Part shown: in pieces, positions 9,922 to 35,837 of the stretch
Position numbering within the stretch: the first letter of the stretch is position 1
How the letters are laid out: every line of letters begins with the position of its first letter
DNA from: an uncultured Peptococcaceae bacterium
Lineage (GTDB): Bacteria; Bacillota; Dehalobacteriia; UBA4068; UBA4997
Direction of reading: 5' to 3'
Assembly: GCA_947647555.1 (NCBI GenBank)
Contig: CANSKT010000009.1
Location: forward strand, 1-36,661
DNA length: 36,661 nt
The notes under the pieces: generated by a model
What the model saw: the letters and a program-made list of their open reading frames with translations, nothing else
Database searches by the model: none
What the model was told of the DNA's origin: nothing
Translations under genes and position numbers: made by a program

Positions 9922-9991
9922 TAATCTTATTACTTATAAACGCCAAACTTCCTTTTAAACCTAAATATCCCTTGTAAACGCCCAATCCACC

Positions 9992-13366: not shown

Positions 13367-13381
13367 TAATATCAATCCTTA

Positions 13382-14557: not shown

Positions 14558-14566
14558 AAAATCACC

Positions 14567-15670: not shown

Positions 15671-15672
15671 AA

Positions 15673-16698: not shown

Positions 16699-18221
16699 AG
16701 CATTTCCTCCAACTCCGCCAGCCCCTTGCTAATCTCCATTTCCAGCGCGTTTAAGTCGGCCAAAAGCTCACTGGTTGGCGGATATTCCACCGGCACATAC
16801 TCAACCTCTTTATACTTATTAATCGACAAATCATAATCATTATCGGCAATATCCTGCTTCGGCACCAAAAAGCTTTGCTCGGTGCGTTGCCGCTCCTGTT
16901 CCTGCTCAAGATTATGGAATCGCTGAATAATATCGGGAATATCATTGTCAGCAATCTCGCTACGCTTATCGTCCAGACTAAAGCCGTCCGCCTGCATATC
17001 ATAGAACCAAACCTTGTCCGTGCCGCCTGCCCCGGTTTTGGTAAACACCAGAACCGCCGTGGAAACCCCAGCATAAGGCTTGAACACCCCAGAGGGCATA
17101 GAGATAACCGCCCGCAGCTGATGATTTTCCACCAACTCCTTGCGCAAAGCCTTGTGCGCCTTGGAAGAGCCAAAAAGCACGCCGTCCGGCACAATGCAGG
17201 CGCAGCGGCCGCCCTTTTGCAGCATACGCAAAAACAAAGCCACAAAAAGCAACTCGGTTTTTTTGGTGTTGGTAACCGCTTTCAAATTGTCGTTAATACT
17301 TTCCGCGTCCACCGTACCCTTAAACGGCGGATTAGCCAGGCAAACGGTGAATTTATCGCTGATAGCGTTTTGCTTGGAAACGCTGTCCAGATAATCAACC
17401 TCAGGCGTGTCAATAGAATGAAGCATTAGGTTCATAGCTGAAATGCGCAGCATAGTCCGGTCCGTATCAAAACCGGTAAACGCCGGGCCAGCAAAATGCG
17501 CCCACTGCTCCGCCGTCATAGTTGGCTCAAAATTTTGCCGGATATACTCCGCCGCCGAAACCAGAAATCCGGCCGTGCCACAGGCAGGGTCGCAAATCAC
17601 ATCATCAGGCGTGGGCCGCAGCAAAGCCACCATCATCTCCCGGATATGCTTTGGCGTGCGGAACTGCCCATTCTGTCCGGCCGTGGCCAGCTTGCTCAGC
17701 ATATACTCATACAAATCACCCTGCATATCCAATCCGGTAAGGTCGTGCTCGTATAAATCATCAAGCCCGGTAATAATCTTCTGCAAAACCTGCGGCGTAG
17801 GTATCAAAAACATAGCGTCGCTCATATACCTAGCAAAAGCAGTATCAGTCGCCGAATCATCAGGTGTTTGCGGCTCAATCATCTCACCCTGCGCAGTAAA
17901 ATCCGGTAAACAACCATTTTTCATATTTTTAATAGCCAGAAAAACCCTTTGAGAAATCACAGCGTAAATATCCCGCGGGTCATTATTTTTGAATTTGCTC
18001 CAGCGCATAGCCTGCCCCTGTGCAGACTGGGGAAAAATCTTCGCCAGCTTCTCACCTGACGAATGCTCTAATTCCTCAGTTTCCAGCTCCTTTTCGTCTA
18101 AGGAACGGATAAACATCAAATATGTAAGTTGCTCAATAACCGTCAGCGGATTTGTAACACCGCCCGCCCATATATCCGTCCAAATTTTATCTATCTTATT
18201 TTTTATCGCTCCAGTAATCAA
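16695..18221 (-). CDS. hsdM: Type I restriction-modification methyltransferase subunit M
   Basis: The protein of about 508 residues is the N6-adenine methyltransferase subunit of the type I complex. It has an HsdM N-terminal helical domain (WAGGVTNPLTVIEQLTYLMFIRSLDE), the SAM-binding DPACGTAGFL and the catalytic NPPF (about residues 297-300). The C-terminal segment (ALEMEISKGLAELEEML) is helical. The frame has no ATG. TTG, GTG and TTG codons lie at 18236, 18230 and 18227. I prefer TTG 18221 because GGGAG ends 8-9 bases upstream, giving ITGAIKNKIDKIWTD after the initiator. The upstream codons would place the start inside the RBS. It is the first gene of the leftward five-gene operon, with a promoter at 18255-18283. 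Confidence 0.95.
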   Translation of the reverse strand: MITGAIKNKIDKIWTDIWAGGVTNPLTVIEQLTYLMFIRSLDEKELETEELEHSSGEKLAKIFPQSAQGQAMRWSKFKNNDPRDIYAVISQRVFLAIKNMKNGCLPDFTAQGEMIEPQTPDDSATDTAFARYMSDAMFLIPTPQVLQKIITGLDDLYEHDLTGLDMQGDLYEYMLSKLATAGQNGQFRTPKHIREMMVALLRPTPDDVICDPACGTAGFLVSAAEYIRQNFEPTMTAEQWAHFAGPAFTGFDTDRTMLRISAMNLMLHSIDTPEVDYLDSVSKQNAISDKFTVCLANPPFKGTVDAESINDNLKAVTNTKKTELLFVALFLRMLQKGGRCACIVPDGVLFGSSKAHKALRKELVENHQLRAVISMPSGVFKPYAGVSTAVLVFTKTGAGGTDKVWFYDMQADGFSLDDKRSEIADNDIPDIIQRFHNLEQEQERQRTEQSFLVPKQDIADNDYDLSINKYKEVEYVPVEYPPTSELLADLNALEMEISKGLAELEEML

Positions 18222-18254
18222 TGCCAACACTCCCAATTATAATATTACACATTA

Positions 18255-18283
18255 ATTATACTATATTGCGATATAAAATACAA
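18255..18283 (-). promoter_or_regulatory. Promoter of the hsdM operon
   Basis: On the minus strand, TTGTAT (18283-18278) and TATAAT (18260-18255) are 17 bases apart, about 35 bases upstream of the preferred hsdM start. The perfect -10 and the position make this the likely operon promoter. It is back to back with the promoter of the DUF262 gene. Confidence 0.7.
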
Positions 18284-18296
18284 TTATTTCCCAATA

Positions 18297-18325
18297 TTGA
18301 TTTCAGCCGCTGGGAGATGTATAAT
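18297..18325 (+). promoter_or_regulatory. Promoter of the DUF262-DUF1524 gene
   Basis: TTGATT (18297-18302) and TATAAT (18320-18325) are 17 bases apart, 36 bases before the ATG at 18361. Only 13 bases separate its -35 from that of the divergent hsdM promoter, so the two could compete or share control. Confidence 0.7.
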
Positions 18326-18360
18326 TAGGTAATAATAACTGCAAAGCAGAGGTGGAATTT

Positions 18361-20472
18361 ATGAAAGGTTCTGCAACAAAAATGACTGGGTTTATGGAAG
18401 GCGCCGACAAGCGTTTTGTAATTCCTGTCTATCAGAGAAAATATGATTGGAAAAATGATAACTGTAGCCAATTATACGAAGATTTGAAGAAGATTATCAT
18501 TGATGAAAGAGATAGTCACTTTTTTGGCAGCATTGTGTCCGCCGTCGTGCCTAACGGCAGTAAAATCGAATATCACATTATTGACGGACAGCAACGCCTT
18601 ACCACCATTTCATTATTACTCCTGGCTATTCGCAATCAGATTGCCAGCGGCAAGGTGAGCACATCTGAGGAAAAGTTGGACGAACAAATCAGCCAGCGTT
18701 TCCTGATTTCTCCGTGGGCCAGCGAGGATGACAGAATCAAGCTGCGCCCCGTAAAGAGCGACCGCCACGCCCTGGCTAAGCTGTTTGAGAATGAGGAGGA
18801 CTTTGAGCCGAACTCCAACCTCACTATCAATTACCAATATTTTTGTGATATGCTTATAAAGGAGGAAATCCCGGTTGCGGATTTATACGCGGCCATCGGA
18901 AAACTCGAAATTATCAGCATAACTTTAGAACAAGGCGACAACGCGCAGTTGATTTTCGAGAGTCTGAACTCCACCGGCCTGGCGCTCACCGAGGGCGACA
19001 AAATCCGCAACTATGTATTGATGGGTATGCCCACCCAAGACCAAACCAAATATTACGATACCTATTGGGCCAAAATTGAAAAATGCACCAATAACGATGT
19101 AAGCGGCTTTGTCAGAGATTACCTCAGTATCAAACAACACATCACTCCAACGCTGAGCAAAATCTACAACTCTTTCAAAGATTATGCAAAAACTTCAGAG
19201 TTACCTATTGACGCTCTCCTGGCCGATTTGCTTCGCTATGCCAGACTGTTTGAGAAGCTCCTTGTCTGTAAAAGCGGCTTGAAATCACAGGCCTTAGACG
19301 ATTGTCTATATCGTTTCAGCCGACTGGACATCAGCGTTACCCACCCCTTTTTGTTGGAAGTGCTACGGCTTAATCAAGACGGCAAGCTGTCTGTTGACGA
19401 GGTTCTGTCTATCTTCCTGATTACGGAAAACTATCTTTTCCGCCGAAATATCTGTGAAGTACCGCCAAACTCGCTCAATAAGATTTTTGTGAATCTAAAT
19501 CGAGAAATTTTGCGTTACGACAACACCGCGGACAATTATGTCAAAAAGTTTATTTATGCGCTGCTATCTAAAAAGGATAGCGGCCGCTTCCCCGACGACG
19601 CTGAATTCACCAAGGCGCTGACAACAAAGCAGGTTTATCAAATGCGCGGCAGATACAAAGTCTATCTATTTGAACGATTTGAAAATTACGGTACAATCGA
19701 AACCAAAGACGTTTATACCCATTTGGATAACAATATCTATACGATTGAACATATTATGCCCCAACATCTGAATCCGGCCTGGCTGGAAACCTTAGGAACA
19801 AATGCTGCCGAAATTCACGCCACCTGGTTACACCGCCTGGCAAACCTAACGTTGACCGGCTATAACCCAGCTTTAAGCAACAACACATTTTCTGAGAAAA
19901 GAGACGCCAAAGAGGGCGGCTACAAAGCCAGTGGACTGAAAATGAACCAAAAGATAGCCGCCAAACAATCCTGGGGCCTGCCGGAATTGGAAGAACGCAA
20001 CCAGGAAATGATGGCACTAGCTACTGAAATTTGGTCTTATCCGAAAACTGATTTTAAACCGATAGAAAAAGAATTTGATTCTTGTACACTTGATGATGAA
20101 AATACAGAGCTAACTGGCCGCGACATCGTAAAATACAGTTATCAAAATACAGAGCAGCCAGTATACAGTTGGACGGATATGTTTGAGCACATCATCAAAT
20201 TTCTTCATCAAAAGGACAAGTCGGTGCTTACCGGTGTTGTATACGGTAATTCGGAGCTAGCCTCTCACATCAGCAATGAGTCCAACAAACTGCGTAGTGC
20301 AATGAAAATCGACGAAAATATCTACATTGAAAAGAATACCACTACTGCGCGGAAAATATCCCTGCTGCGCCGAATCTTTGCCTTGTTTGGTGCTGAACCA
20401 ACAGATTTAGTGTTCTATTTGAAAGATGAAGAAACTAATAAAAATACAAACGCCAGTTATCATAAAATCTAA
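18361..20472 (+). CDS. DUF262-DUF1524 (GmrSD-like) restriction protein
   Basis: The 703-residue protein combines the N-terminal DUF262 nucleotide-binding module with a C-terminal DUF1524 HNH nuclease. DUF262 shows IPVYQRKYDW (about 21-30), FFGSIV and IIDGQQRLTT (about 74-83), with IFESLNSTGLALTEGDKIRN further on. DUF1524 shows YTIEHIMPQHLNPAW (about 460-474) and HRLANLTLTGYNPALSN. A further domain of about 110 residues follows (SWTDMFEHIIKFLH and on), seen in some restriction proteins. Family members such as GmrSD cut glucosylated or otherwise modified phage DNA using NTP. ATG 18361 is chosen because GAGGTGG precedes it by 5 bases; an upstream GTG at 18352 lies within that RBS. It is divergent from hsdM and ends at a hairpin shared with the TA operon. 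Confidence 0.9.
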   Translation: MKGSATKMTGFMEGADKRFVIPVYQRKYDWKNDNCSQLYEDLKKIIIDERDSHFFGSIVSAVVPNGSKIEYHIIDGQQRLTTISLLLLAIRNQIASGKVSTSEEKLDEQISQRFLISPWASEDDRIKLRPVKSDRHALAKLFENEEDFEPNSNLTINYQYFCDMLIKEEIPVADLYAAIGKLEIISITLEQGDNAQLIFESLNSTGLALTEGDKIRNYVLMGMPTQDQTKYYDTYWAKIEKCTNNDVSGFVRDYLSIKQHITPTLSKIYNSFKDYAKTSELPIDALLADLLRYARLFEKLLVCKSGLKSQALDDCLYRFSRLDISVTHPFLLEVLRLNQDGKLSVDEVLSIFLITENYLFRRNICEVPPNSLNKIFVNLNREILRYDNTADNYVKKFIYALLSKKDSGRFPDDAEFTKALTTKQVYQMRGRYKVYLFERFENYGTIETKDVYTHLDNNIYTIEHIMPQHLNPAWLETLGTNAAEIHATWLHRLANLTLTGYNPALSNNTFSEKRDAKEGGYKASGLKMNQKIAAKQSWGLPELEERNQEMMALATEIWSYPKTDFKPIEKEFDSCTLDDENTELTGRDIVKYSYQNTEQPVYSWTDMFEHIIKFLHQKDKSVLTGVVYGNSELASHISNESNKLRSAMKIDENIYIEKNTTTARKISLLRRIFALFGAEPTDLVFYLKDEETNKNTNASYHKI

Positions 20473-20525
20473 AAGAAATATAATGAATGAACAATAAAAA
20501 TTGCCCATTATAAATTGCCAACTTA

Positions 20526-20573
20526 TTTATACACAAAAAAGCGCTTATCCCTCAACCCAAAGAATAAGCGCTT
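20526..20573. terminator. Bidirectional hairpin terminator, copy 1 of a dispersed element
   Basis: TTTATACACAAAAAAGCGC leads into a 10-bp stem (arms 20539-20548 and 20564-20573) with a 15-base loop. It lies between the convergent DUF262-DUF1524 gene and the RelE-like toxin gene, so it should end both transcripts. The same lead sequence and related hairpins recur at about 21921 and 22210. Confidence 0.7.
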
Positions 20574-20577
20574 ATTA

Positions 20578-20913
20578 TCATTCCATATCAATATACTCAA
20601 GCTGCGCCAACTGTTCACGCCTACCATAAACCACAGCGACAATATTAACTTGGCTATGTTCTTCATCAATCCAATAATACATCAAAAAATTTTTTATCAC
20701 CATTTGGCGCAACCCCTGACTGCGCCATTTTTCTTCCTGCATAAGAGGATGCCTTGCTGGCATTGCGGCCAATGAAATGGCGGCACTTTTCATCGCCAAC
20801 AAAAGATTTTTAGCTGCCATTGGAGCATAAATTTCATCGGCAATATAACGCTTAATTTCTGTCATTTGTTCATAGGCATATTTTGTGATATGCACTTTAT
20901 ATTCTTTCGCCAT
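20578..20913 (-). CDS. RelE/ParE family toxin
   Basis: The 111-residue toxin starts at MAKEYKVHITKYAYEQM, 4 bases after the stop of its antitoxin. The RelE/ParE fold is recognisable from this opening beta strand and helix, the ISLAAMPARHPLM segment and the C-terminal RQMVIKNFLMYYWID...VNIVAVVYGRRE pattern. ParE members poison gyrase and RelE members cut mRNA on ribosomes. The QMVIKNFLMYYWID pattern resembles RelE/ParE proteins in general and does not settle the target. A longer in-frame reading would extend into the antitoxin and is rejected. Likely role: addiction of the island, possibly also phage defence. Confidence 0.85.
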   Translation of the reverse strand: MAKEYKVHITKYAYEQMTEIKRYIADEIYAPMAAKNLLLAMKSAAISLAAMPARHPLMQEEKWRSQGLRQMVIKNFLMYYWIDEEHSQVNIVAVVYGRREQLAQLEYIDME

Positions 20914-20917
20914 AAAA

Positions 20918-21226
20918 TTATAACCCCTGCAACAATCTATCAAAAGCAGCCTCGGCAGGAATTGTTTCACCAGCTTTGGCCTGCTCCAAGCTAGTTTGCA
21001 GCATTTTATCAAATTCAGTATCCGCAATCATATCACGAGTTTTAATCGCCGCTGACGCTGTTGGCAGTTCCACAGCAAAGGGAATACCCTGCCGCAAAAT
21101 AACTTGCCGATACGCCATATTAACAAAAGTAGAAGTAGATACGCCAAGGCTTGCCAGAATAGCCTCGGCCTGCGCCTTAATATCCGGCTCCACACGCACG
21201 CTTACATTTGCACTTCTTCCAGACAT
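20918..21226 (-). CDS. RelB/DinJ family antitoxin
   Basis: This 102-residue antitoxin begins MSGRSANVSVRVEPDIKAQA, a ribbon-helix-helix DNA-binding segment, followed by ILASLGVSTSTFVNMAYRQVI. The C-terminal half (TEFDKMLQTSLEQAKAGETIPA) is the likely toxin-binding arm. ATG 21226 has AAGGTGG 7 bases upstream. It precedes its toxin gene in the usual antitoxin-first order and probably represses the shared promoter in the AT-rich stretch 21240-21310. Confidence 0.88.
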   Translation of the reverse strand: MSGRSANVSVRVEPDIKAQAEAILASLGVSTSTFVNMAYRQVILRQGIPFAVELPTASAAIKTRDMIADTEFDKMLQTSLEQAKAGETIPAEAAFDRLLQGL

Positions 21227-21313
21227 CACAAAACCACCTTTCTTTTTATTATATTATACCAATTTGTATCGCAAAATGCAACACTTTATTCAAGACAAAA
21301 GCATCCTCAATAA

Positions 21314-21592
21314 TTATTTACCCAACAAATCGGCATGGCTTCCAGTTGCCGTAGCCGAGATAATTAAAATATCATCATAAATTTGATACATTAACAACCA
21401 GTCTGGCTCAATATGACACTCCCTGAAATCGCTCAAGTTTCCCGAAAGCTGATGGTCTTTATACTTTGCAGGTAAAGGATTGCCCTCCGCCAGCAAAGCT
21501 AAAACCTTAATCAGCTTATTCATATCCTTGCCACGCTTTTGCATTAGCTTAGCGTCTTTCTTCATACGATTAGTATAAACAATTTTATACAT
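21314..21592 (-). CDS. YafQ family toxin (mRNA interferase)
   Basis: This 92-residue toxin has the YafQ pattern: an opening YKIVYTNRMKKDAKLMQKRG, a middle LPAKYKDHQLSGNLSDFRECHIEPDWLLMYQI and a terminal ILIISATATGSHADLLGK. It contains the His-rich catalytic context (KDHQLSG, RECHIEPDW, GSHADL) typical of ribosome-dependent RNA cleavage by YafQ. The gene follows its antitoxin after 6 bases. This is the second complete TA pair in 1.3 kb and is of a different toxin subfamily from the first. Confidence 0.92.
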   Translation of the reverse strand: MYKIVYTNRMKKDAKLMQKRGKDMNKLIKVLALLAEGNPLPAKYKDHQLSGNLSDFRECHIEPDWLLMYQIYDDILIISATATGSHADLLGK

Positions 21593-21598
21593 CCGCCG

Positions 21599-21856
21599 TC
21601 AATCCTCCAGCATTGAAACCACCGCAGCCTCGGCGCTGTCAAAAGGCCCATGCAGATTGAGGCGATAACGGGTGTCATAAATTGCTTCAGCCAAAGAATC
21701 GGTTTTATGCTGAACAGAAAAAGGTATACCAGCGTGTTCAATAGCCGCATTCAAAAAAATGCGTATTGCGGTTGAGGTATCCAGCCCCAAACCAGCAAAC
21801 AAAGCGTCTGCCTCTTTCTTCAAATTATCATCAACTCTAATTTGTAATGTTGCCAT
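21599..21856 (-). CDS. DinJ/RelB family antitoxin
   Basis: This 85-residue antitoxin has the ribbon-helix-helix start ATLQIRVDDNLKKEADALFAGLGLDTSTAIRIFLN, which is the typical DinJ pattern, followed by an acidic C-terminal toxin-binding segment. ATG 21856 has GGAGGTG 7 bases upstream. It precedes the YafQ gene and should neutralise that toxin and autorepress the operon from the AT-rich upstream region. Confidence 0.92.
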   Translation of the reverse strand: MATLQIRVDDNLKKEADALFAGLGLDTSTAIRIFLNAAIEHAGIPFSVQHKTDSLAEAIYDTRYRLNLHGPFDSAEAAVVSMLED

Positions 21857-21920
21857 ACAAATGCACCTCCGTTGCTATTGTAATATTATTATACTATATT
21901 ATAAATGATTTTGCAATGCT

Positions 21921-22037
21921 TTATACACAAAAAAGCGCCTACTCTCCAGCCGGTGGTAAGCGTCCTTTTCATTCATTTAACAATCCAGAAAAATCGTTCT
22001 ATAATATTACATCTATATGTACCGTACTTTTACTAAC
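21921..22037. repeat. Repeat unit A (hairpin lead plus spoIIID-junction sequence)
   Basis: This unit of about 115 bases starts TTTATACACAAAAAAGCGCC and ends at ATATGTACCGTACTTTTACTAA. It is clearly related to 22210-22323 (start TTTATACACAAAAAGCGCC, end ATATGTACCCACACTTTTGCTAA). The spoIIID fragment lies between the two. The arrangement looks like a tandem duplication of about 290 bases whose second unit is truncated. Confidence 0.65.
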
Positions 22038-22130
22038 CCCAAACACCCCGGCCGTCTGCCGCACTGTTGATTTGCTCTCAATTATATAATTGCTGATTTC
22101 CAACACTCTTTTTTGGATATACTCCTGCAT
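21999..22130 (-). pseudogene. Truncated spoIIID copy (first half)
   Basis: ATG 22130 begins a 43-codon frame whose first 38 residues are identical to SpoIIID (MQEYIQKRVLEISN through SKSTVH). It then diverges (IDVIL) and stops. Three coding differences from the intact gene are all synonymous (two Ser, one Ala codon). RBS and SigE-like promoter are both intact. The second recognition region of the HTH, the LRGGMATK motif and the basic tail are missing, so DNA binding is unlikely. It may be transcribed in sporulating mother cells and yield a short peptide. Confidence 0.88.
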
Positions 22131-22196
22131 AAAAAGGCCTCCCCACTTGTGCCACAAACTTTTGTAAAGTATATGACCCAAGTGGGGGATTATGCC
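22016..22196. repeat. Right 181-bp direct repeat (DR-R), island boundary
   Basis: This is the partner of 7034-7214 in direct orientation, ungapped, with five transitions. It closes the right side of the defence island just after the second TA pair. Confidence 0.9.
22168..22195 (-). promoter_or_regulatory. Duplicated SigE-like promoter
   Basis: The minus strand has GCATAAT (22195-22189), a 13-base spacer and CATATACT (22175-22168), the same as at spoIIID. Of the five repeat differences, two fall in the spacer and none in the core elements. Confidence 0.65.
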
Positions 22197-22209
22197 AAAG
22201 AAAAAACCA

Positions 22210-22323
22210 AACAGATTTATACACAAAAAGCGCCTACTCCAAAATAAAGGATAAGCGCTCTTTCATTTTATCTCCCAAACAAAATGCTCTATAATATTAT
22301 CCCTATATGTACCCACACTTTTG
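22210..22323. repeat. Repeat unit B, truncated spoIIID-junction copy
   Basis: This is the second copy of unit A. Its last part, CTATATGTACCCACACTTTTGCTAA, matches the first bases of the direct repeat and then stops. It therefore holds only about 25 bases of spoIIID-derived sequence, a third and smallest trace of that gene. Confidence 0.6.
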
Positions 22324-22331
22324 CTAATAAA

Positions 22332-22358
22332 AAAACCCCAGTAGCCGCTGGAGGTTTT
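22332..22358. terminator. Intrinsic terminator-like hairpin
   Basis: AAAACC and CCAG pair with CTGG and GGTTTT around a 6-base loop with one bulge. A/T-rich runs follow on both strands (TTTTGCTTTTTTTT on plus, TTTTT on minus). It separates the spoIIID fragments from the HTH array. Confidence 0.6.
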
Positions 22359-22493
22359 CGTTTTGCTTTTTTTTGAAAAAAATGTCTTTGCTCATTTCTT
22401 TCCAATATGATTATAACACCCCAAAAGGATTTTGTCAACACTCACCAACTTAAATTTTCTTTTATCTTAAATATTTTTTAAAATAGGTTACAA

Positions 22494-22521
22494 AAAAATG
22501 CCATTTTCCAACGGAATGGCA
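22494..22521 (-). terminator. Terminator after the leftmost HTH gene
   Basis: TGCCATT pairs with AATGGCA. On the minus strand the stem is followed by seven T, and it lies about 75 bases past the stop of the leftward HTH gene at 22596. This fits a Rho-independent terminator. Confidence 0.65.
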
Positions 22522-22595
22522 GTACCCTGACGCTTCGCTAAAAAATCCACCTTTTATATTTTTTTTGCATAATCCAATTTTTCAAGCTAAAAAGC

Positions 22596-22814
22596 CTATA
22601 ATGTTTTATCAGGAACATACTCGGCTATATCAGATAATTCACAATCCAAAATTTCGCATAGTTTATTTAATGTATGAGTCGTAACCGGTTCATTACGCTG
22701 AAGCCGTTGAACAGTTGCATGGCTCATTTCATGTTTAACTCGTAAGGTATATGTTGTAACTTTCTTCTGTTTCATTGTTTCCCATAATGGTGTATAATCA
22801 ATAATAGCAATCAC
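22596..22814 (-). CDS. Small Cro/C1-type HTH protein (array member a)
   Basis: The protein of about 72 residues contains a single Cro/C1-type HTH: DYTPLWETMKQKKVTTYTLR, then MSHATVQRLQRNEPVTTHTLNKLCEIL and the tail DIAEYVPDKTL. It is a paralogue of members b, d and f, sharing LW-x2-M at the start and DI-x-EYVPDK at the end. It probably binds DNA as a small repressor. No ATG is well placed. GTG 22814 overlaps the AGGGGTG Shine-Dalgarno-like stretch, and member f has the same arrangement, so an ATT start a few codons later is possible. It diverges by 18 bases from a SLOG 5' fragment. Confidence 0.75.
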   Translation of the reverse strand: MIAIIDYTPLWETMKQKKVTTYTLRVKHEMSHATVQRLQRNEPVTTHTLNKLCEILDCELSDIAEYVPDKTL

Positions 22815-22831
22815 CCCTAATTTACAAACCA

Positions 22832-22901
22832 ATGAAAACATGTGTATTGGCCGGTCAACAAACACAAAACCTTTTTATGAAAATAAAAAGGTTTTGTGTT
22901 T
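22832..22901. repeat. SLOG 5' fragment copy 1 with long hairpin
   Basis: On the plus strand ATG 22832 reads MKTCVLAGQQTQNLFMKI, a degenerate copy of the first 18 codons of the SLOG/DUF1273 gene at 25326. A perfect 18-bp inverted repeat overlies it (arms 22860-22877 and 22884-22901, 6-base loop) and lies 15 bases beyond the stop of member b, for which it probably acts as terminator. The right arm is an inverted duplicate of the fragment itself. Confidence 0.75.
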
Positions 22902-22915
22902 GACACTAATAATAA

Positions 22916-23125
22916 TTAGCTTTCCTTATCGGGTACATATTCCATTATATCTTCAACCCGGCAATTCAATATACAACACAAATTATTTATTGTTACTGTC
23001 TTTATAACCATATTATGACGCAATCTATGTAGTTGAGCTTTATCAACACCATAATCCTGTATAAGATTATACTGGCTAATGCCTTTCTGTTTCATTGTTT
23101 CCCAAAGCCTATCAAACTTTATCAT
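22916..23125 (-). CDS. Small Cro/C1-type HTH protein (array member b)
   Basis: The 69-residue HTH protein has FDRLWETMKQKGISQYNL, GVDKAQLHRLRHN, TVTINNLCCILNC and the tail DIMEYVPDKES. It is a paralogue of members a, d and f, with all the conserved positions of that group. ATG 23125 lies within the last codons of member c, overlapping by 14 bases, so the two are translated from one mRNA and probably coupled. Presumed small DNA-binding repressor; operator not known. Confidence 0.85.
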   Translation of the reverse strand: MIKFDRLWETMKQKGISQYNLIQDYGVDKAQLHRLRHNMVIKTVTINNLCCILNCRVEDIMEYVPDKES

Positions 23126-23357
23126 ATTTATTCTCTACCTGCACCTCAATCATATAAACCAATTCACTTGGGCGCATATTCAATGCTTGAGAAATTCTCC
23201 AAATTGTTTCAAAATTAGCTTGCTTACTACCATTCTCTATCATAGTTAAATGAGTACGTGACATTCCAGCTAATCCACTTAAAACCTCTTGAGATATATT
23301 TCTTGATTTTCTTATTTCACGTATGGTTTGCCCAACTGCTTCATTATTAAATTGCAC
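23112..23357 (-). CDS. XRE family HTH regulator (array member c)
   Basis: The 81-residue XRE-family regulator has the standard HTH_3 pattern: IREIRKSRNISQEVLSGLAGMSRTHLTMIENGSKQANFETIWRISQAL. It is from a different branch than the small LW-type paralogues. GTG 23357 has GAGGTG 5 bases upstream. A perfect 16-bp palindrome (23381-23396) lies just upstream of the start, a plausible self-operator. It is co-transcribed with member b. Confidence 0.9.
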   Translation of the reverse strand: MQFNNEAVGQTIREIRKSRNISQEVLSGLAGMSRTHLTMIENGSKQANFETIWRISQALNMRPSELVYMIEVQVENKYDKV

Positions 23358-23380
23358 TATATCACCTCAAATAATTTCTA

Positions 23381-23396
23381 CATAAAATATTTTATG
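23381..23396. promoter_or_regulatory. Perfect palindrome upstream of HTH member c
   Basis: CATAAAATATTTTATG is a perfect 16-bp palindrome located 24 bases upstream of the member c start codon. Position and symmetry suit an operator for a dimeric Cro/C1-type repressor. An AT-rich palindrome of this length could also arise by chance. Confidence 0.45.
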
Positions 23397-23449
23397 AAAA
23401 ATATAGTCTGCGAGGATAGACAAAGCGAATTTATTTTGTTATAATATAC

Positions 23450-23659
23450 TTAATATGTTTTATCAGGAATATACTCCGCTATATCTTCTAACTTACAATC
23501 TAAAGCAGCACATAATTTATCTAGTGTTTTAGTTTCAACATTGTCATTAGCTCTTAATCGACGAACTGTTTTACTATCAATACCACATTTTTCTCTTAAC
23601 CAATATGTTGATACTTCTTTTTCGAGCATTTTTTCCCATAACTTGTTAAATACGATCAT
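23450..23659 (-). CDS. Small Cro/C1-type HTH protein (array member d)
   Basis: The 69-residue paralogue of members a, b and f has FNKLWEKMLEKEVSTYWLREKCGIDSKTVRRLRAN, then TKTLDKLCAALDCKLEDIAEYIPDKTY. ATG 23659 has AAGGG 7 bases upstream. It diverges by 44 bases from SLOG fragment copy 2 at 23704, too close for two separate full promoters, so the spacer may be a remnant. Confidence 0.85.
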   Translation of the reverse strand: MIVFNKLWEKMLEKEVSTYWLREKCGIDSKTVRRLRANDNVETKTLDKLCAALDCKLEDIAEYIPDKTY

Positions 23660-23703
23660 GATATTCCCTTTTTTATATTGTTAAAAGATAAAGGATTATA
23701 AAA

Positions 23704-23757
23704 ATGAAAACATATACATTTGCTGGTCATCGCTCGCAAAACTTTTCATGGAGATAA
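23704..23757 (+). repeat. SLOG 5' fragment copy 2
   Basis: ATG 23704 reads MKTYTFAGHRSQNFSWR and then stops. This is the closest of the short copies to the SLOG start at 25326 (FTGHRPQNFSWK). AAAGGAT lies 7 bases upstream. The homology ends at codon 17, as in other copies. Confidence 0.75.
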
Positions 23758-23810
23758 TTTATAATAATATGATGCGTGTATACACCATAAGCAATTAGAA
23801 AAAACTGATT

Positions 23811-24149
23811 TTATTTTTTCGCTTCTTTAATCTTTTGTAGTTCAACATATTCAATAACTGATTTACGCCCATGCTCACTTAATGAAAGTATATCCTGTAA
23901 CAATTTAGAACTAGAACATTCACGAGTAACATACACCAAATCCAGCGATTGTTTTTCATCAAAAACAGAACGACCAATTAAATAGTCAGCAGAAACATCA
24001 TAGTATTTCGCCAATTTTATAAAATCATATTCCCCTGTTTCATATTTAGAATAATGCTGCTGTGAAATACCTAAAACTGATGCTATTTCGCTTTGTGAAT
24101 AATCATTATCTTCTCGCAATTCTCGAAATAACTCTATCACAGTTTTCAC
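23811..24149 (-). CDS. XRE family HTH regulator (array member e)
   Basis: The 112-residue XRE regulator resembles phage C2-type repressors. It has FRELREDNDYSQSEIASVLGISQQHYSKYETGEYDFIKLAKYYDVSADYLIGR followed by a C-terminal helical segment (KLLQDILSLSEHGRKSVIEYVELQKI) that may dimerise. GTG 24149 has AGAGG 8 bases upstream. The upstream 120-base spacer contains two palindromes with the same ATACATA half-site (24182-24201 and 24227-24248), the likely operators. It is divergent from SLOG fragment copy 3. Confidence 0.9.
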   Translation of the reverse strand: MKTVIELFRELREDNDYSQSEIASVLGISQQHYSKYETGEYDFIKLAKYYDVSADYLIGRSVFDEKQSLDLVYVTRECSSSKLLQDILSLSEHGRKSVIEYVELQKIKEAKK

Positions 24150-24181
24150 AGCATTTACCTCTCTTTACAGGAAAGTTTAAC

Positions 24182-24248
24182 ATACATATATTAGTATGTA
24201 TCATTTTTACTTATTTAATCGCTTTTTATACATATAATTATATGTATA
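24182..24248. promoter_or_regulatory. Two operator-like palindromes (ATACATA half-site)
   Basis: ATACATA-N6-TATGTAT lies at 24182-24201. A perfect 22-bp palindrome containing the same half-sites (TATACATATAA and its complement) lies at 24227-24248 and includes a TATAAT. Both lie between member e and the divergent SLOG fragment. Their shared half-site is the main reason to consider them binding sites of member e. Confidence 0.6.
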
Positions 24249-24270
24249 GATTTAATGAAAGAAGAAAAAA

Positions 24271-24330
24271 ATGAAAACATGTGCATTTGCCGGTCACCAA
24301 ACACAAAACTTTTTTATGAAAATAAGATAA
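24271..24330 (+). repeat. SLOG 5' fragment copy 3
   Basis: ATG 24271 reads MKTCAFAGHQTQNFFMKIR and then stops. It shares the first 18 codons with the SLOG gene. Spacer sequence after it (AAAAGCTGTTGGCAAACTAAATTAG) resembles that after copy 4, so the repeat extends a little beyond the coding homology. Confidence 0.75.
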
Positions 24331-24386
24331 AACAAACAAAAACTGATTAGAAGTAAAAAAGCTGTTGGCAAACTAAATTAGTAAAG

Positions 24387-24421
24387 CTGACCTACCATAC
24401 TTTTGGCAGTCAGCTTTTATT
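24387..24421. terminator. Terminator between SLOG fragment 3 and HTH member f
   Basis: AAAGCTGAC pairs with GTCAGCTTT and is followed by TTATTTTATAA on the plus strand. The other side ends the leftward HTH gene whose stop lies at 24417-24419. It probably terminates both. Confidence 0.6.
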
Positions 24422-24620
24422 TTATAAATCGAACAATATCATTAGGAGTACAATCAATAATATTACAAAGTTTTTCTAACGTAAGTAATGTTATATTCTT
24501 ATTTTTTCTTAGAGCATCAAGCGTCTTATTATCTATACCGGCTTTTATCAGCTTATATTGACTTATATTCTTTTTACTCATTGTATCCCACAATGGACTA
24601 TAATCAATAATAGCAACCAC
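24417..24620 (-). CDS. Small Cro/C1-type HTH protein (array member f)
   Basis: The 67-residue paralogue of a, b and d has AIIDYSPLWDTMSKKNISQYKLIKAGIDNKTLDALRKN, then LEKLCNIIDCTPNDIVRFIK. It starts at GTG 24620, or at an ATT shortly downstream. AGAGGTGG overlaps the GTG and is at ideal distance from the ATT codons, as in member a. The 120-base upstream spacer holds an operator-like palindrome (24671-24694) and a rightward promoter for SLOG fragment copy 4. Confidence 0.8.
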   Translation of the reverse strand: MVAIIDYSPLWDTMSKKNISQYKLIKAGIDNKTLDALRKNKNITLLTLEKLCNIIDCTPNDIVRFIK

Positions 24621-24670
24621 CTCTAATTTACAAAGCCTATGTAAATTATAAGGTGTTTTTTCTTAAATTA

Positions 24671-24702
24671 ATATTGTGAATATATCCACAATATATTATA
24701 AT
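24671..24702 (+). promoter_or_regulatory. Promoter with operator-like inverted repeat (ATATTGTG)
   Basis: ATATTGTG-N8-CACAATAT (24671-24694) overlaps the -35 (TTGTGA, 24674-24679) and spacer of a rightward promoter whose -10 TATAAT is at 24697-24702 (17-base spacing). Repressor binding here would block transcription of the SLOG fragment at 24741. Confidence 0.6.
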
Positions 24703-24740
24703 AGCAATAGCCTATACATTATTCTAAATAAAGGAGAAAA

Positions 24741-24830
24741 ATGACAACATGTGTATTTGTCGGTCACCAAACACAAAATCTTTTTATGAAAATAAAAAAG
24801 ATATCAGCAAACCAAGTTACTACACCAGGA
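24741..24830 (+). repeat. SLOG 5' fragment copy 4
   Basis: ATG 24741 reads MTTCVFVGHQTQNLFMKIKK and runs for some 20 more unrelated codons before stopping. AAAGGAG lies 6 bases upstream and a good promoter precedes it, so a short peptide could be made. Confidence 0.7.
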
Positions 24831-24833
24831 TTT

Positions 24834-25196
24834 TTACTCTTTATCTACCGCCAAGGCTTCTAATAACTTATTCATAATTTCTTTTACAACTCTGTATTTT
24901 CTTGGTGATAAACGAGATAATCTAATTGCTAATAATTGAATTTCAGTCTCACGTTCCTGCTTTTTAATTATTTCGGGTTGACCAAATATTAAAAAATCAA
25001 CAGGAATAGATAAATTTTCACTAATTTGTTTGAGAGTACTTATTGATACGCCAACAGCTCCACGTTCCATAGCTGAAACATGTTTAACACCTCGCCCCAT
25101 CATTTCAGCAAGCGTTTCTTGTGTTAAACCGGCGGCATCACGATAATATCTGATATTTTGTCCAATCTCAATATTTATTGATTTCTTTTCTTTCAC
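24834..25196 (-). CDS. XRE family HTH regulator (array member g)
   Basis: The 120-residue XRE regulator has IGQNIRYYRDAAGLTQETLAEMMGRGVKHVSAMERGAVGVSISTLKQISENLSIPVDFLIFG, a standard HTH_3, followed by a helical C-terminus (ERETEIQLLAIRLSRLSPRKYRVVKEIMNKLLEAL). GTG 25196 has AAGGTGG 8 bases upstream. It diverges by 129 bases from the longest SLOG copy, and the spacer contains a promoter overlapped by a perfect 12-bp-arm inverted repeat, the likely shared operator. Confidence 0.9.
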   Translation of the reverse strand: MKEKKSINIEIGQNIRYYRDAAGLTQETLAEMMGRGVKHVSAMERGAVGVSISTLKQISENLSIPVDFLIFGQPEIIKKQERETEIQLLAIRLSRLSPRKYRVVKEIMNKLLEALAVDKE

Positions 25197-25237
25197 AATA
25201 ACACCACCTTATATTATTATTTTAACTAATAGTGTTA

Positions 25238-25281
25238 TTGACTATAACCATTTATATTTGTTATAATATATAACAAATATA
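25238..25281 (+). promoter_or_regulatory. Promoter with 29-bp inverted-repeat operator
   Basis: TTGACT (25238-25243) and TATAAT (25262-25267) are 18 bases apart. A perfect inverted repeat, TATATTTGTTAT / ATAACAAATATA (25253-25264 and 25270-25281, 5-base centre), covers the -10. This is the strongest promoter/operator pair in the array and precedes the SLOG gene. Confidence 0.65.
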
Positions 25282-25325
25282 ATATTACCAAAGATGCAAT
25301 ATTGTAAATTTAGCAAATGGAGATT

Positions 25326-25589
25326 ATGTTTAATAAAACATGTGCTTTCACAGGTCACCGACCACAAAACTTTTCATGGAAATATGGTGAAACAGCGCCA
25401 GAGTGTATTCTGCTGAAAAATATCATAAATTAGCAAATATCCATACTGACCGATAACGGCTATACCGATTTCCTCTCCGGTATGGCGCTTGGCGTTGATA
25501 CCTGGGCGTCAGAAATCGTCCTGAATTTGCGCAAAAAAATTCCTACCCTGAAACTCCATTATATTCTGCCCTGCAAAAATCAGACGGAA
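25326..25589 (+). pseudogene. SLOG/DUF1273 (YpsA-like) gene, in-frame TAG, truncated
   Basis: ATG 25326 reads MFNKTCAFTGHRPQNFSWKY and on, meets TAG at 25431-25433 and continues in the same frame as QISILTDNGYTDFLSGMALGVDTWASEIV, then LHYILPCKNQTE. FTGHRP, SGMALGVD and LPCKNQ are hallmarks of the DUF1273/SLOG Rossmann family, which binds nucleotide-like ligands; roles are mostly unknown. The second half of the domain (beyond the NQT region) is missing, replaced by unrelated coding sequence. The stop could be a CAG-to-TAG change. Decayed unless the TAG is read through. Confidence 0.75.
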
Positions 25590-26179
25590 ATGATGGACAG
25601 AATGGCCGCCTATATAGCCACAGCCACCGATAGCGAATATGATAAAATTGCGCAGAAGATAAGACATGATTTTATTTTTTTCATTGGGACGAAAGCGCCA
25701 GAGAGATTGTGCAATTTTTGCCCAACACCGCCAGAAAATGCCCAACATGCCGGAGCGATTATTCAGAGCAGGCATACATTATAGCTAACAATAACGGCGA
25801 ATTTTATGCTCTGGATTTAGAAGATAAATTCAGTGATATGTTGGGTACACATGCCTCACTTACTTCTGCTGGCTATGAAGAAATCAGCAAAAGTACTTTA
25901 TATATTACACATAATCTGTTTGACGGCAGCTGTCAGACCTTTTTACATCAGGGCGAGGAGATTTTAAGCGTTCAGCGCATGAAAAAGGTTTTTTGTGATG
26001 AGTGTATCGAGAAGATACTTTCCACGCTTGACGGTCAGTATATAACAACTTTTTCGATTTTCATACCGCAGGAGCAAAAATTTTATTCTATCAATAATGA
26101 ACTGAATATCCAAATTGATGATTACACTTTAACCGCCAGATTAGAATACGAAAATGCTTATATTGACTATTGCCTGTAA
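25590..26179 (+). pseudogene. Unknown cysteine-containing protein, frameshifted, fused to SLOG remnant
   Basis: From ATG 25590 the SLOG frame continues as MMDRMAAYIATATDSEYDKI...HDFIF. At a run of seven T (25675-25681) the frame is lost. The +1 frame reads HWDESAREIVQFLPNTARK, then CPTC and a long open frame to 26179. Adding one T would restore a single protein of about 196 residues. Its features are CPTC near residue 50, CDEC further on (both CxxC, possibly zinc-binding), and a beta-rich ending. I recognise no family. A sequencing error at the T run is possible, in which case the gene is intact. Confidence 0.55.
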
Positions 26180-26186
26180 ACAACAG

Positions 26187-26218
26187 AACGCCGCCGTTTT
26201 CAAAAAAACGACGGCGTT
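26187..26218. terminator. Bidirectional terminator
   Basis: AACGCCGCCGTTTT pairs with AAAACGACGGCGTT (one mismatch), with T runs on both sides. It lies between the rightward unknown gene and the leftward SOD-family gene. Confidence 0.85.
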
Positions 26219-26228
26219 TTGTCAGGTT

Positions 26229-26750
26229 TTACATACCCGGCCCAATTAAACTTTTAATCTCACCACAGGCGATTTTAGTACCAGAATTGCCAGATGGTTG
26301 TGTAGTAAAATCATCAGGGTGGTCATGAATGATAACCGTTCGCCCAACAATCTCATCAACGCTGAAGCGATTGGTCAAAAACGCCGAAATCGCCAGTCCC
26401 TTGTTACCAAACAGCGGCGGCAAATCACCGGCATGATACGGGTGCGCACAATTCGCCAAATCAAAATGCTGCATAGCGTCAGCAAAAGGGTCTTTCATAT
26501 TGCCCTCGCAGTCCGTTCCCTGATGTATATGAAAGCCAAAAATCCCCTCGTAACATGGACGCTGAACATCAGGCAGTCCGCATATCTCGGCAAACACAAT
26601 CACACCCTCATAGGTTTGATAAAACAGCACCGTCCCCAGAACATCAGGGTATTTTTCGCTGCCCCTGATAACAGCCGCCGCCTGCGCCCGGCTGCATAAA
26701 ATTGACGATAAATGCAAATCGGAATGGCTGCAATAAACCTGCTTTGTCAT
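26229..26750 (-). CDS. Cu/Zn superoxide dismutase family protein
   Basis: The 173-residue protein has the Cu/Zn SOD pattern: GFHIHQGTDC (two Cu-binding His), MQHFDL (bridging His), AHPYHAGDLPPL (Zn ligands), VIIHDHPDDF (last Cu ligand) and SGNSGTKIACGEI. It would convert superoxide to peroxide and oxygen. All metal ligands are present, but the active-site arginine of classic enzymes (GxRxACG) is lysine here, which may lower or change activity. No signal peptide is visible, so it is probably cytoplasmic, unlike most bacterial SodC. Single gene, in a shared terminator context. Confidence 0.85.
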   Translation of the reverse strand: MTKQVYCSHSDLHLSSILCSRAQAAAVIRGSEKYPDVLGTVLFYQTYEGVIVFAEICGLPDVQRPCYEGIFGFHIHQGTDCEGNMKDPFADAMQHFDLANCAHPYHAGDLPPLFGNKGLAISAFLTNRFSVDEIVGRTVIIHDHPDDFTTQPSGNSGTKIACGEIKSLIGPGM

Positions 26751-26828
26751 ATAAAAACGCTCCCTTACAATTAACGCTTAATATACCAGAATATGCAGCT
26801 TTATATTAACAGGTTACCGCTTCAGCGC

Positions 26829-27980
26829 TCAACCATTGAATGGTAATTTAACAGCCAACAGAACAAGAACCGCCAGAAAACAGATATTTCCCAGCGTAAA
26901 CAATGCAATATATTTACTTTTACTCTGCGGAATTTCCTTAGCCACCTGCTTATAAGAAATTAAACTTGCCATGGAGGCAATCAGGGTACCAAGCCCACCA
27001 AGGTTTGTGCCGATAATAAGGCCGGCAAAATTCTCCGTAAAACCGGACAAAAGCAGCGCCGCCGGCACATTACTAATAATCTGGCTGGCAATTATAGCGG
27101 TATAAATTTCCCGGCCGGCAATAATATTCTGCAAAAACTCACAAAAAACAGGAATATTGCCAACATTACCAATAAAAATAAAAAATCCGGCAAATGTAAA
27201 AAGCAACGAATAATCAACCTGTTTAAATACCTGCCTGTCAGTTACAAATATAACAATGCAGACAATCGCCAAAACCAGCAGCCAGGGCAGAATATGCCCC
27301 ACCGTCAGCAAACAAAGCGAAAATAACGCCAGATAAACTATTAATGGATACATGATTTCTTTCTGACGCAAAGTATTATCAGTAGTCGAATTATGTCTAA
27401 ATCGCAGCGACAGCGCGCCAATTTTACCCAGCAGCATACTGCAAGCCAATAGCATAACAAATGCCAAAAGCGCATAAGGTAACATCAATAGCATAAATTT
27501 GCTAACAGAAAGGCCGGCTTTACCGTAAAGATACAAATTTTGCGGATTACCTATGGGCGTCAGCATACTGCCAAGATTGGCCGCAATCGTCTGCATCACA
27601 ACCACCGGCATCAGCAGGCGTTTTCTGAGTTTTGTCCCCAACAGATTAAAAACCGTAAATGTAAAAGGCACAAAAGTAATCAGCGCCACATCGTTGGTAA
27701 TCAACATACTGGAGAAGAAACACAGCAAAACCAGGGTCAGAAAAAGCCCTCGGCCATTTTTAACACGCAGCAAAAGCTTTCTGGCCGTCCACTGAAACAC
27801 GCCGATTTTCTGCAAACCGGCCATAACAATCATCAGACAAAACAATATCGCTAAAGTTCTGTAATCAATATATTGCCAATAACTGCTGTTTGGCGGCACA
27901 ATAAACATTGACAATATTGCCAAAATAACCGCAACACATAAAACCGTTTCTTTTTTGAAAAATCCAATTATTCTGTTCAT
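26829..27980 (-). CDS. SLC13/ArsB-type anion permease
   Basis: The protein of about 383 residues is a polytopic permease of the SLC13/CitT-ArsB superfamily, with roughly ten membrane helices. Recognisable parts are YIDYRTLAILFCLMIVMAGLQKIG, then SSMLITNDVALITFVPFTF (the conserved NDxAL region), QTIAANLGSMLTPIGNPQN and, near the end, SNVPAALLLSGF and GTNLGGLGTLIASMASLISY. The two repeated inverted halves and NPQN/GNP loops are typical of Na+ or H+-driven dicarboxylate or arsenite transport. Substrate unknown. The start could be ATG 27980 or 27989. The longer frame would overlap the preceding radical SAM gene, with which it is probably co-transcribed. Confidence 0.85.
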   Translation of the reverse strand: MNRIIGFFKKETVLCVAVILAILSMFIVPPNSSYWQYIDYRTLAILFCLMIVMAGLQKIGVFQWTARKLLLRVKNGRGLFLTLVLLCFFSSMLITNDVALITFVPFTFTVFNLLGTKLRKRLLMPVVVMQTIAANLGSMLTPIGNPQNLYLYGKAGLSVSKFMLLMLPYALLAFVMLLACSMLLGKIGALSLRFRHNSTTDNTLRQKEIMYPLIVYLALFSLCLLTVGHILPWLLVLAIVCIVIFVTDRQVFKQVDYSLLFTFAGFFIFIGNVGNIPVFCEFLQNIIAGREIYTAIIASQIISNVPAALLLSGFTENFAGLIIGTNLGGLGTLIASMASLISYKQVAKEIPQSKSKYIALFTLGNICFLAVLVLLAVKLPFNG

Positions 27981-30659: not shown

Positions 30660-31870
30660 CTAAATCAGCATTTGCTCAATCTCCACTTCCACATCCCGAA
30701 ACTTGACTTTTATCGTTTCAGCGTCCACCACCTCAATTCTCTCAATCATTTTTCGGGTTATCACATCGTCATATTCTCTAAATCCCACCGCCTGCTCATC
30801 CAGCCACTCCTTAGCTTCTCTCATTCGGGACTGCTTGTTAGCGCTATAAACGCCCTCGTTTTCCAGCGTCTTTATCCATTCCTGAAGCTGTTGCTTTTCT
30901 TCCTTTATTTTTTTGTTCCGCAACCAGCGATTCATTTTCCATATCCTCCAGCACTATATCCACCAGTTTAGCTTGTTTCCTACAAAGATTTTCTAATTTG
31001 TGCTTCAGAGATAATATGCTAACCGACTTATCTTCAATCTCACCTCCCTGCGCCAGATTTCAAACCAGCAGCTCAGTTAAAGCATATTTACTGGAATATT
31101 TACCCTGCTCCGTTTTAACATATTTCTGAGCCACTCGACGTTTACCGAAACGTCTGCTCATCTTCTCCTGTACGCGTCGGTAAATCTCTCTTGGTACAAT
31201 AACCGGATGGTTATCCTGAATATAGTACATTGGCTTTTCACCGTTATTTTTCTTCACCTTTTTGCTGACACAATCGGTTACATAGGTTTTCTGGAGCAGA
31301 GCATCGCCGCAATATTTCTCATTTTTCAAAATGCTTTGAATAACACCAACATTCCACTTCTGGACGCCTAAAGAGGTCGGAACATTATCCTCCTCCAGCT
31401 CGGCTTTAATAATATGCGTACTTGCTCCCTCCAGATAACGTCGGTAAATTCTTCTGATCGTTTCTGCATCCTCTGGCACAATCTCCGGCTTATTATCTGC
31501 CCCTCTGCGATAACCAAGCAGTCTGGTAAATTGGAATACCACATTACCAGCCTCCATACTCTTTTGCATACCCCAACTCACATTCTTACTCAGAGATTCC
31601 GACTCAGCCTGAGCAAAACCGCTGAACAGGGTTATCAGAAACTTGCTGGATTGGGTTAAGGTATTGATGTTTTCTTTCTCAAATATCACCCCGATTCCGT
31701 TGGCCTTAAGCATACGTACCGTTTCCAGACAATCCACCGTGTTTCTGGCAAAGCGAGATAGTGATTTGGTCAGTATCAGGTCAATACGACCTCTTTTACA
31801 GGCGGCTATCATCCGACTGAATTCCTTGCGTTTTTTTCAAACTGGTACCGGAGATACCCTCATCTATCTA
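30660..31870 (-). pseudogene. Decayed large serine recombinase C
   Basis: Coding fragments in three frames: a partial resolvase domain with GISGTSLKK at about 31850, then IAACKRGRIDLILTKSLSRFARNTVDCLETVRML, the recombinase domain (ending KYALTELLV at 31060) and a C-terminal coiled coil at 30935-30660 (RNKKIKEEKQQLQEWIKT). A frame loss near 31812, a stop at 31060, and absence of the zinc-ribbon region make it non-functional. The N-terminal catalytic serine segment is also missing. Full-length relatives are about 500-550 residues and carry out site-specific integration. Confidence 0.85.
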
Positions 31871-32018
31871 ATAGCCCATTTTGATACAATTCTATTTTCC
31901 CTACACTTTTTATTTTGCCTTCAGAGGAGGTTCAAATGCAAAAACAAGCCAAAATTCAATAGATTTATCCTTTATTTTGTGGTATCATATTTTAACAAAT
32001 CGAATTTTAGGAGGTACT

Positions 32019-33002: not shown

Positions 33003-33076
33003 TTGGAAACTGTATATTGAACCGATTGCACCTATCGGTTATGAAGAATAACACAAATTCAAGTTCGTTGTTTAAA

Positions 33077-33105
33077 TCCCCCGCAGCACACTGCTGTAGG
33101 GGATT
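33077..33105. terminator. Strong hairpin after recombinase B
   Basis: ATCCCC and CAGCA pair with TGCTG and GGGGAT with small internal mismatches. It begins at the stop of recombinase B remnant and lies downstream of the DUF5677 gene, so it may terminate both. Confidence 0.6.
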
Positions 33106-34552: not shown

Positions 34553-34596
34553 GTCTGCCTCCTCCCTTCCCGAAAATGGTATTCCAAGCTGCCGTT

Positions 34597-35793: not shown

Positions 35794-35837
35794 TTTATCA
35801 CTTCTTTCCGCTACCATATATCACTCTGGACAGGGCT

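Follow-up and report, generated by a model that had tools for sequence, protein, structure and literature searches.

Organization of the Array

The DNA analysed here (hereafter, the window) is a stretch of 36,661 nucleotides from an uncultured Peptococcaceae bacterium, a gut-type member of the Bacillota (contig CANSKT010000009.1 of assembly GCA_947647555.1, which comprises 162 contigs). Between positions 22596 and 25592 it harbors seven leftward open reading frames (ORFs) coding for small helix-turn-helix (HTH) regulators and five rightward 5' ends of a SLOG gene of the YpsA family (PF06908), the PF06908 match of the genome search falling on the last of them, f5. H1, H2, H3, and H5 are HTH_26 (LW-type) proteins, and X3, X4, and X6 belong to HTH_3 types (Table 1). 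The five SLOG ends constitute a single repeat family, D1, sharing 65–90% identity over 62 nt, and within the genome the strong matches to them are confined to this locus (E-values from 7e-33 to 3e-7). Both the ORFs and the repeat family thus bear out a sequence-only reading of the locus, which had listed four LW-type and three XRE genes together with five SLOG 5' ends; the alternation of the two kinds of elements that it described holds as a general layout but is not one-to-one, since X3 and H2 overlap and no SLOG end separates them.

All seven HTH ORFs are open, whereas all five SLOG copies are truncated or interrupted. The X6–f5, H5–f4, and X4–f3 spacers are 120–129 bp long, within the range of 80–300 bp between an HTH start and a PF06908 gene that defines a module; the spacers are shortened at H3–f2 (44 bp) and H1–f1 (17 bp). 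For H1 and H5, translation may begin not at the listed GTG (22814 and 24620, respectively) but at an ATT codon preceded by a ribosome site, GGGGTG/GAGGTG. Rfam gave no match over positions 20000–27000; hence, no known RNA family accounts for the conserved SLOG 5' end. Array DNA retrieved a single weak match of 200 nt from phages and none from plasmids, and a search of IMG/VR retrieved one distant SLOG and no match to the stubs.

Table 1. Features of the array and of its right border (positions in the window).
Feature	Description	Position	Strand
H1	HTH_26 LW-type; mosaic (H5-type 5' end, HTH1-type body); start codon uncertain	22596–22814	-
f1	SLOG 5' stub, ~17 codons	22832–22891	+
H2	HTH_26 LW-type	22916–23125	-
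X3	HTH_3 regulator, overlapping H2	23112–23357	-
H3	HTH_26 LW-type	23450–23659	-
f2	SLOG 5' stub	23704–23754	+
X4	HTH_3 regulator	23811–24149	-
X4 candidate operators	Perfect 22-bp palindrome at 24227–24248 (p = 0.005) and related site at 24182–24201	24182–24248	
f3	SLOG stub to ~codon 40, with 1-nt insertion and internal stops	24271–24389	+
H5	HTH_26 LW-type	24417–24620	-
H5 putative operator	ATATTGTG-N8-CACAATAT, on the -35 and spacer of a promoter-like TTGTGA-17-TATAAT	24671–24702	+
f4	SLOG 5' stub	24741–24797	+
X6	HTH_3 regulator	24834–25196	-
SLOG promoter-like site	TTGACT-18-TATAAT, overlapped by the X6 putative operator (14-nt arms, 25252–25282)	25238–25282	+
f5	SLOG pseudogene, codons 1 to ~83, TAG at codon 36	25326–25592	+
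Membrane-protein gene remnant	SLOG-linked, single transmembrane segment; fused to f5, frameshifted near 25690	25593–26179	+
Hairpin	Downstream of the membrane-protein remnant; predicted - strand terminator, facing the array	26187–26218	

The SLOG 5' Ends and Their Edges

When compared with dinucleotide shuffles, the SLOG homology of f2 and f4 scored above all 300 of them, and that of f1 gave p = 0.007. In f3 the homology continues after the 1-nt insertion and several stops, with 36–38 of 72 nt identical versus 24 ± 3.5 in shuffles (p = 0.002), a significance that in the anchored comparison holds against three of the five intact or longer SLOG copies. Beyond about codon 17, the same comparison revealed nothing consistent for f1, f2, and f4, and frameshift-tolerant local alignment alone extended none of f1–f4 past codon 17. 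Moreover, f1 and f4 share the same apparent deletion relative to f3.

The copy at 25326 (f5) had been read as the longest one; it is indeed homologous up to about codon 83, but it is not a full gene, being interrupted by the TAG at codon 36 and fused to a broken membrane-protein gene. Beyond codon 83 the frame-tolerant alignment breaks, and the sequence that follows matches, out of frame, the 3' part of a downstream gene encoding a protein with a single transmembrane (TM) segment. This gene is intact beside an intact SLOG gene in G006, a genome of the same genus (locus L016, 2008–2760), and the corresponding matches in the window lie at 25608–25678 and 25971–26037. The simplest reading of the fusion is a deletion that would have joined the two genes. 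Elsewhere in the genome, no sequence matched SLOG above the family cut-off, so that no intact SLOG gene remains in it. A second stub was detected on another contig of the genome, C59 (L188, about 1418–1790), where it extends to about codon 46 beside a decayed X6-type regulator.

The nucleotide alignment of the repeats, which the sequence-only reading had proposed as a means of mapping breakpoints, revealed a fixed left edge and differing right edges. The former coincides with the SLOG start codon, as conservation in the alignment of ends from ten places sets in at the ATG and does not reach upstream of it; the latter fall at about codons 17, 40, and 83 in the array and about codon 46 on C59. 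The idea that the homology always ends near the same codon therefore applies to f1 and f2 and not to f3 or to the C59 stub, and much of the apparent common endpoint marks where the best conserved part of the coding sequence stops. Furthermore, a profile of the first 24 SLOG codons did not retrieve any further array of SLOG 5' fragments from 398 genomes of the phylum, 43 of the class, and 35 of the order, nor from 80 SLOG loci. One extra weak match to the profile within the genus (G002, contig C15) lies in an intergenic hairpin and was judged to be due to chance.

Just after the H2 stop, the end of f1 and its own inverted copy make up a perfect inverted repeat (22859–22902; arms of 20 nt, loop of 4 nt), a hairpin that a template switch may have left behind.

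Ancestry of the Seven Regulators

The relatives of the seven regulators were sought in other genomes, one genome per species being compared, and G005 representing the sister species. The body of H1 shares 83% identity with an HTH protein (HTH1') of G004 (contig C51) and 70% with a SLOG partner in L027. H2 is 78% identical to the lone SLOG partner of G005 (L017), H5 is 77% identical to that of G004 (L018, contig C101), and H3 is 76–83% identical to the SLOG partners of Oscillospiraceae and related Clostridia (L028–L044). Within the array, H2, H3, and H5 share 43–54% identity with H1. Concerning the HTH_3 types, X6 shares 63% identity with the SLOG partner of G006 (L016), and the nearest relative of X3 (44%) is a divergent SLOG partner in L050. 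Overall, for six out of seven HTHs the nearest relative is a regulator of the SLOG-partner kind that stands alone in another genome, divergent from a SLOG gene (one such relative has lost its SLOG), and in four cases it belongs to the same genus.

The four LW-type genes lie on four branches of the tree, and forcing them to be monophyletic was rejected (approximately unbiased test, p = 1e-40). These data bear directly on the possibility, raised by the sequence-only reading, that one ancestral HTH–SLOG module underwent repeated tandem duplication followed by divergence. The regular layout would agree with such a history, and one local duplication is visible (from the H5 5' end and f4 to H1–f1; see below), but the array embeds two unrelated HTH families, and the LW-type regulators do not form one clade and have their nearest relatives beside a SLOG or alone elsewhere. 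Repeated duplication is thus rejected for the array as a whole, and we regard it as extremely improbable.

Regulator Replacement at SLOG Genes

A genome-wide scan yielded 80 loci with a SLOG relative. In many of them a leftward HTH gene starts 90–300 bp upstream of the SLOG gene, with many HTH subfamilies represented. Three genomes of the same genus, G004, G005, and G006, each possess intact SLOG genes with one leftward HTH; the intact SLOG relatives match PF06908 at 112 bits. The SLOG clade composed of L016, L017, L018, L020, and L025 (support 95/91) is associated with five regulator types. Across this clade the 42 nt from the ATG are 67–93% identical, and the 110 nt upstream have no significant similarity; among modules with the same regulator the upstream DNA is similar (for the X6 type, that is f5, L016, and C59, z 14–35). 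Identities downstream of the ATG were left out for C59, where they carried an offset of one base. Across Clostridia, the regulators of these modules are thus interchangeable. The conservation of SLOG from the ATG on, together with the unlike DNA upstream, implies that regulator, operator, and spacer were replaced together. This comparison shows that the putative repressor, its candidate operator, and the spacer were exchanged en bloc, with the joint at the SLOG start codon, by a recombination route that we infer. The exchange at the SLOG 5' end that had been suggested from the sequence consequently stands as an evolutionary pattern, in which unrelated regulator–operator units are joined at the ATG; a cassette system built on a dedicated repeat is not supported.

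L025, L042, L064, L069, and L077 each have a pair of leftward HTH genes in tandem upstream of an intact SLOG gene, and the two are apparently of different kinds in L025 and L042. On contig C51 of G004, two LW-type HTHs, one of them the relative of H1, are stacked at the contig end with no SLOG between them; regulator stacking is therefore not confined to the genome bearing the array. A decayed stub suspected by eye between these two genes was rejected (p = 0.63), the resemblance stemming from the H1-type operator.

Traces of Recombination Within the Array

H1 is a mosaic: its upstream region and first codons are H5-like, and the body that follows the conserved LW motif is of the HTH1 type. One local duplication did happen here, the H5 5' end and f4 having been copied onto an HTH1 body to give H1–f1. 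Moreover, f1, f3, and f4 are 88–90% identical over their first 42 nt; relative to intact SLOG genes they have in common an extra T as well as other changes, and they adjoin different HTHs (H1, X4, and H5, respectively). The sharing of lesions beside differing regulators thus means that a SLOG end was copied or converted when it was already broken. This is the best support for exchange at the SLOG 5' end, and homologous recombination alone would suffice for it.

The same data can be read in terms of a cassette system, in which the SLOG 5' end would serve as an attachment-like repeat and a recombinase would insert, excise, and exchange HTH cassettes. The sharp left edge at the ATG, the 88–90% identity of f1, f3, and f4 beside different HTHs, and the swapping of regulators at intact SLOG genes too are all compatible with it. 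However, the right edges vary, the conserved block also corresponds to a conserved N-terminal coding motif, and a second array was not found in the genomes searched. Furthermore, no recombinase is encoded within 21800–26600; the serine recombinases at 31060–35817, present on the - strand as a tandem of three large genes or gene pieces, are 5 kb away, past the block common to the window and G005. A cassette system appears quite improbable in the light of these features.

Candidate Operators and Promoters

Palindromes were searched for in 28 HTH–SLOG spacers, about a third of which gave p ≤ 0.06. In the array, the X6 and H5 palindromes (p = 0.005 and p = 0.04, respectively) overlap promoter-like sites that both read into SLOG. 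The putative operator of X6 is conserved in G006 and on contig C59, and that of H5 in G004 (L018). A site of the H1 type, TATGGC-N8-GCCATA, recurs in L027 and G004 (with N9 there as printed). According to the gene layout, the HTH proteins would repress SLOG through these candidate palindromes.

History of the Site and Neighboring Genes

The segment 22206–26215 is absent from G005, which carries about 48 bp of other sequence in its place. The flanks of the two genomes align up to 22205 on the left (90% identity) and from 26216 on the right (95–96%). In G004, the region from relBE to sodC also lacks the array. The simplest reading is that the array segment was inserted in this lineage; alternatively, it could have been lost from both G005 and G004.

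The absence of the segment from G005, the fragmentation of the assembly, and the guanine-cytosine (GC) content of the array (0.28–0.34, below that of most of the surrounding DNA) might also point to an assembly or binning artefact joining repeats of different genomes. We consider this very improbable: for four of the seven HTHs the closest relatives belong to the same genus, the mosaics occur at the scale of codons and not at that of contig joins, and low GC marks other island parts of the window too.

As regards the surroundings, a spoIIID-like gene is intact at 6864–7199, and a truncated 5' copy of it (21999–22226, 96% identical over 195 bp) lies at the left edge of the array; a truncated copy is present at the same site in G005. 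A defence-like island (8983–20472) includes type I restriction-modification genes, a RhuM-family gene, a HAD-like gene, and two genes for DUF262-type proteins (HEC-05 and an Orf5/HEC-06-like protein). In G004, an element of about 170 bp with GCGGTTAGCC/GGCTAACCGC ends is located immediately to the left of three separate HTH or HTH–SLOG modules (L185, 4164–4346; L189, 105–281; L192, 5256–5427); it has a tiny ORF, and the two that were read begin with MPVRLTFHIGRF and MSLRITLRIGTF. A gene for an Rpn-family (PDDEXK_2) nuclease lies to the left of HTH1' in G004 (broken; L185, 3071–4152) and to the left of an X6-type regulator in G006 (intact; L190, 6612–7451).

Origin of the Array

According to these data, the array is probably a decayed accretion of independently derived repressor–SLOG modules, brought about by ordinary recombination in a manner resembling the swapping of phage immunity regions. 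The parent unit would pair a small leftward HTH repressor gene with a SLOG gene of the YpsA type running rightward, and the palindromic operator between the two would overlap the SLOG promoter; a dimer of the HTH protein would bind the operator and hold down both SLOG and its own gene. The repressor, with its own operator and spacer, is exchanged as a unit at the SLOG start codon, and several such units would have been added beside the X6–SLOG–membrane-protein locus via homologous or illegitimate recombination. The old regulators were not removed, and all SLOG copies were truncated or mutated while every HTH ORF stayed open, the end state being a decaying stack of repressors with distinct DNA targets, with no machine driving a cassette array.

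Several observations weigh against this reading. The palindrome signal is mixed over the 28 spacers and significant for some only; H1 lacks an H1-type site of its own and has no recognisable operator left, and H3 lacks TAAGGGGATATAAYCCCCATA, the site present in its relatives L034 and L039. The proposed repression of SLOG is deduced from the gene layout, no close relative of X4 was found among SLOG partners, and the genome is known from a fragmented assembly. Lastly, decay alone does not explain why seven HTH ORFs are open after the death of SLOG.

This last aspect, i.e., seven open HTH frames beside five dead SLOGs, suggests continued use, for example against incoming modules. The array could then be a bank of orphan repressors under selection, each HTH silencing incoming mobile HTH–SLOG modules of its own operator class, as in prophage immunity or with anti-addiction antitoxins. 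Besides the contrast between open HTH ORFs and broken SLOG copies, such a bank would agree with the pairing of different HTHs with different candidate operators, with the occurrence of related modules in neighboring species, and with the lethality of YpsA overproduction through division arrest in Bacillus subtilis (PMC7376506). However, the genome has no intact SLOG to repress, the expression of H1 and H3 is uncertain as they have no operators, and the low dN/dS values (0.07–0.25) mostly reflect the time before SLOG death, the periods before and after it not being separable. On balance, a bank of this kind is unlikely. The broader proposal is likewise doubtful, namely that the SLOG start is a recurrent swap point for repressor–operator units and that cells which have lost SLOG retain a stack of the repressors swapped out there, gaining immunity to SLOG modules that arrive with any of several operator classes, which would make a repressor bank outside phages. 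As to a locus diversifying the regulation of a gene, which the sequence-only reading had envisaged, this fails in the present genome because no intact SLOG gene is left for the regulators to serve.

Comparison with Known Systems

Temperate phages exchange their immunity regions in such a way that a repressor travels together with its cognate operators, as in the imm exchange of lambdoid phages and among the rstR alleles of the CTX type. The family to which the array belongs resembles them in that a repressor–operator unit is swapped beside a conserved gene and several specificities exist, as judged from the SLOG tree and the regulator types; moreover, X4 and X6 have sub-threshold matches to the NCBIfam model phage_RstR. 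It differs in that the controlled gene is a SLOG gene instead of a phage replication switch, that several units are stacked, and that the controlled gene is dead.

As for YpsA/DUF1273 (PF06908), the likeness lies in a SLOG gene that adjoins a regulator and sometimes a single-TM gene. As differences, the passages considered of PMC7376506 on B. subtilis YpsA describe no divergent exchangeable regulator, and the array copies are all pseudogenes. Overproduction of YpsA blocks division in B. subtilis and is lethal on plates (PMC7376506). Members of the YpsA clade of SLOG proteins have also been proposed to sense or process nucleotides of the ADP-ribose type as part of conflict systems (PMC9503650). 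A repressor on a gene of this type would make sense.

Two further systems can be considered. Orphan type II antitoxins, in the anti-addiction idea (e.g., PMC7354431), share with the array the retention of regulator genes after the loss of the partner gene; the array regulators, however, would by their layout be promoter repressors, and SLOG toxicity is suggested only by the parallel with B. subtilis YpsA (PMC7376506). Integron cassette arrays are similar in having short genes in one orientation with similar short sequences between them. The array differs from them in that no integrase was found, the right edges are variable, and the repeat is a coding sequence; neither a linked dedicated recombinase nor constant junctions were found at the array.

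Biological Significance

The array can be regarded as a fossil record of regulator swaps, and it also calls for caution, as a neat alternation of genes and stubs need not imply a cassette machine. SLOG proteins of the YpsA type have a wide distribution and are poorly understood. That very similar SLOG genes stand under unrelated, swappable repressor–operator units provides candidate repressor–operator pairs and suggests that varied regulation is selected for, in the manner of phage immunity types.

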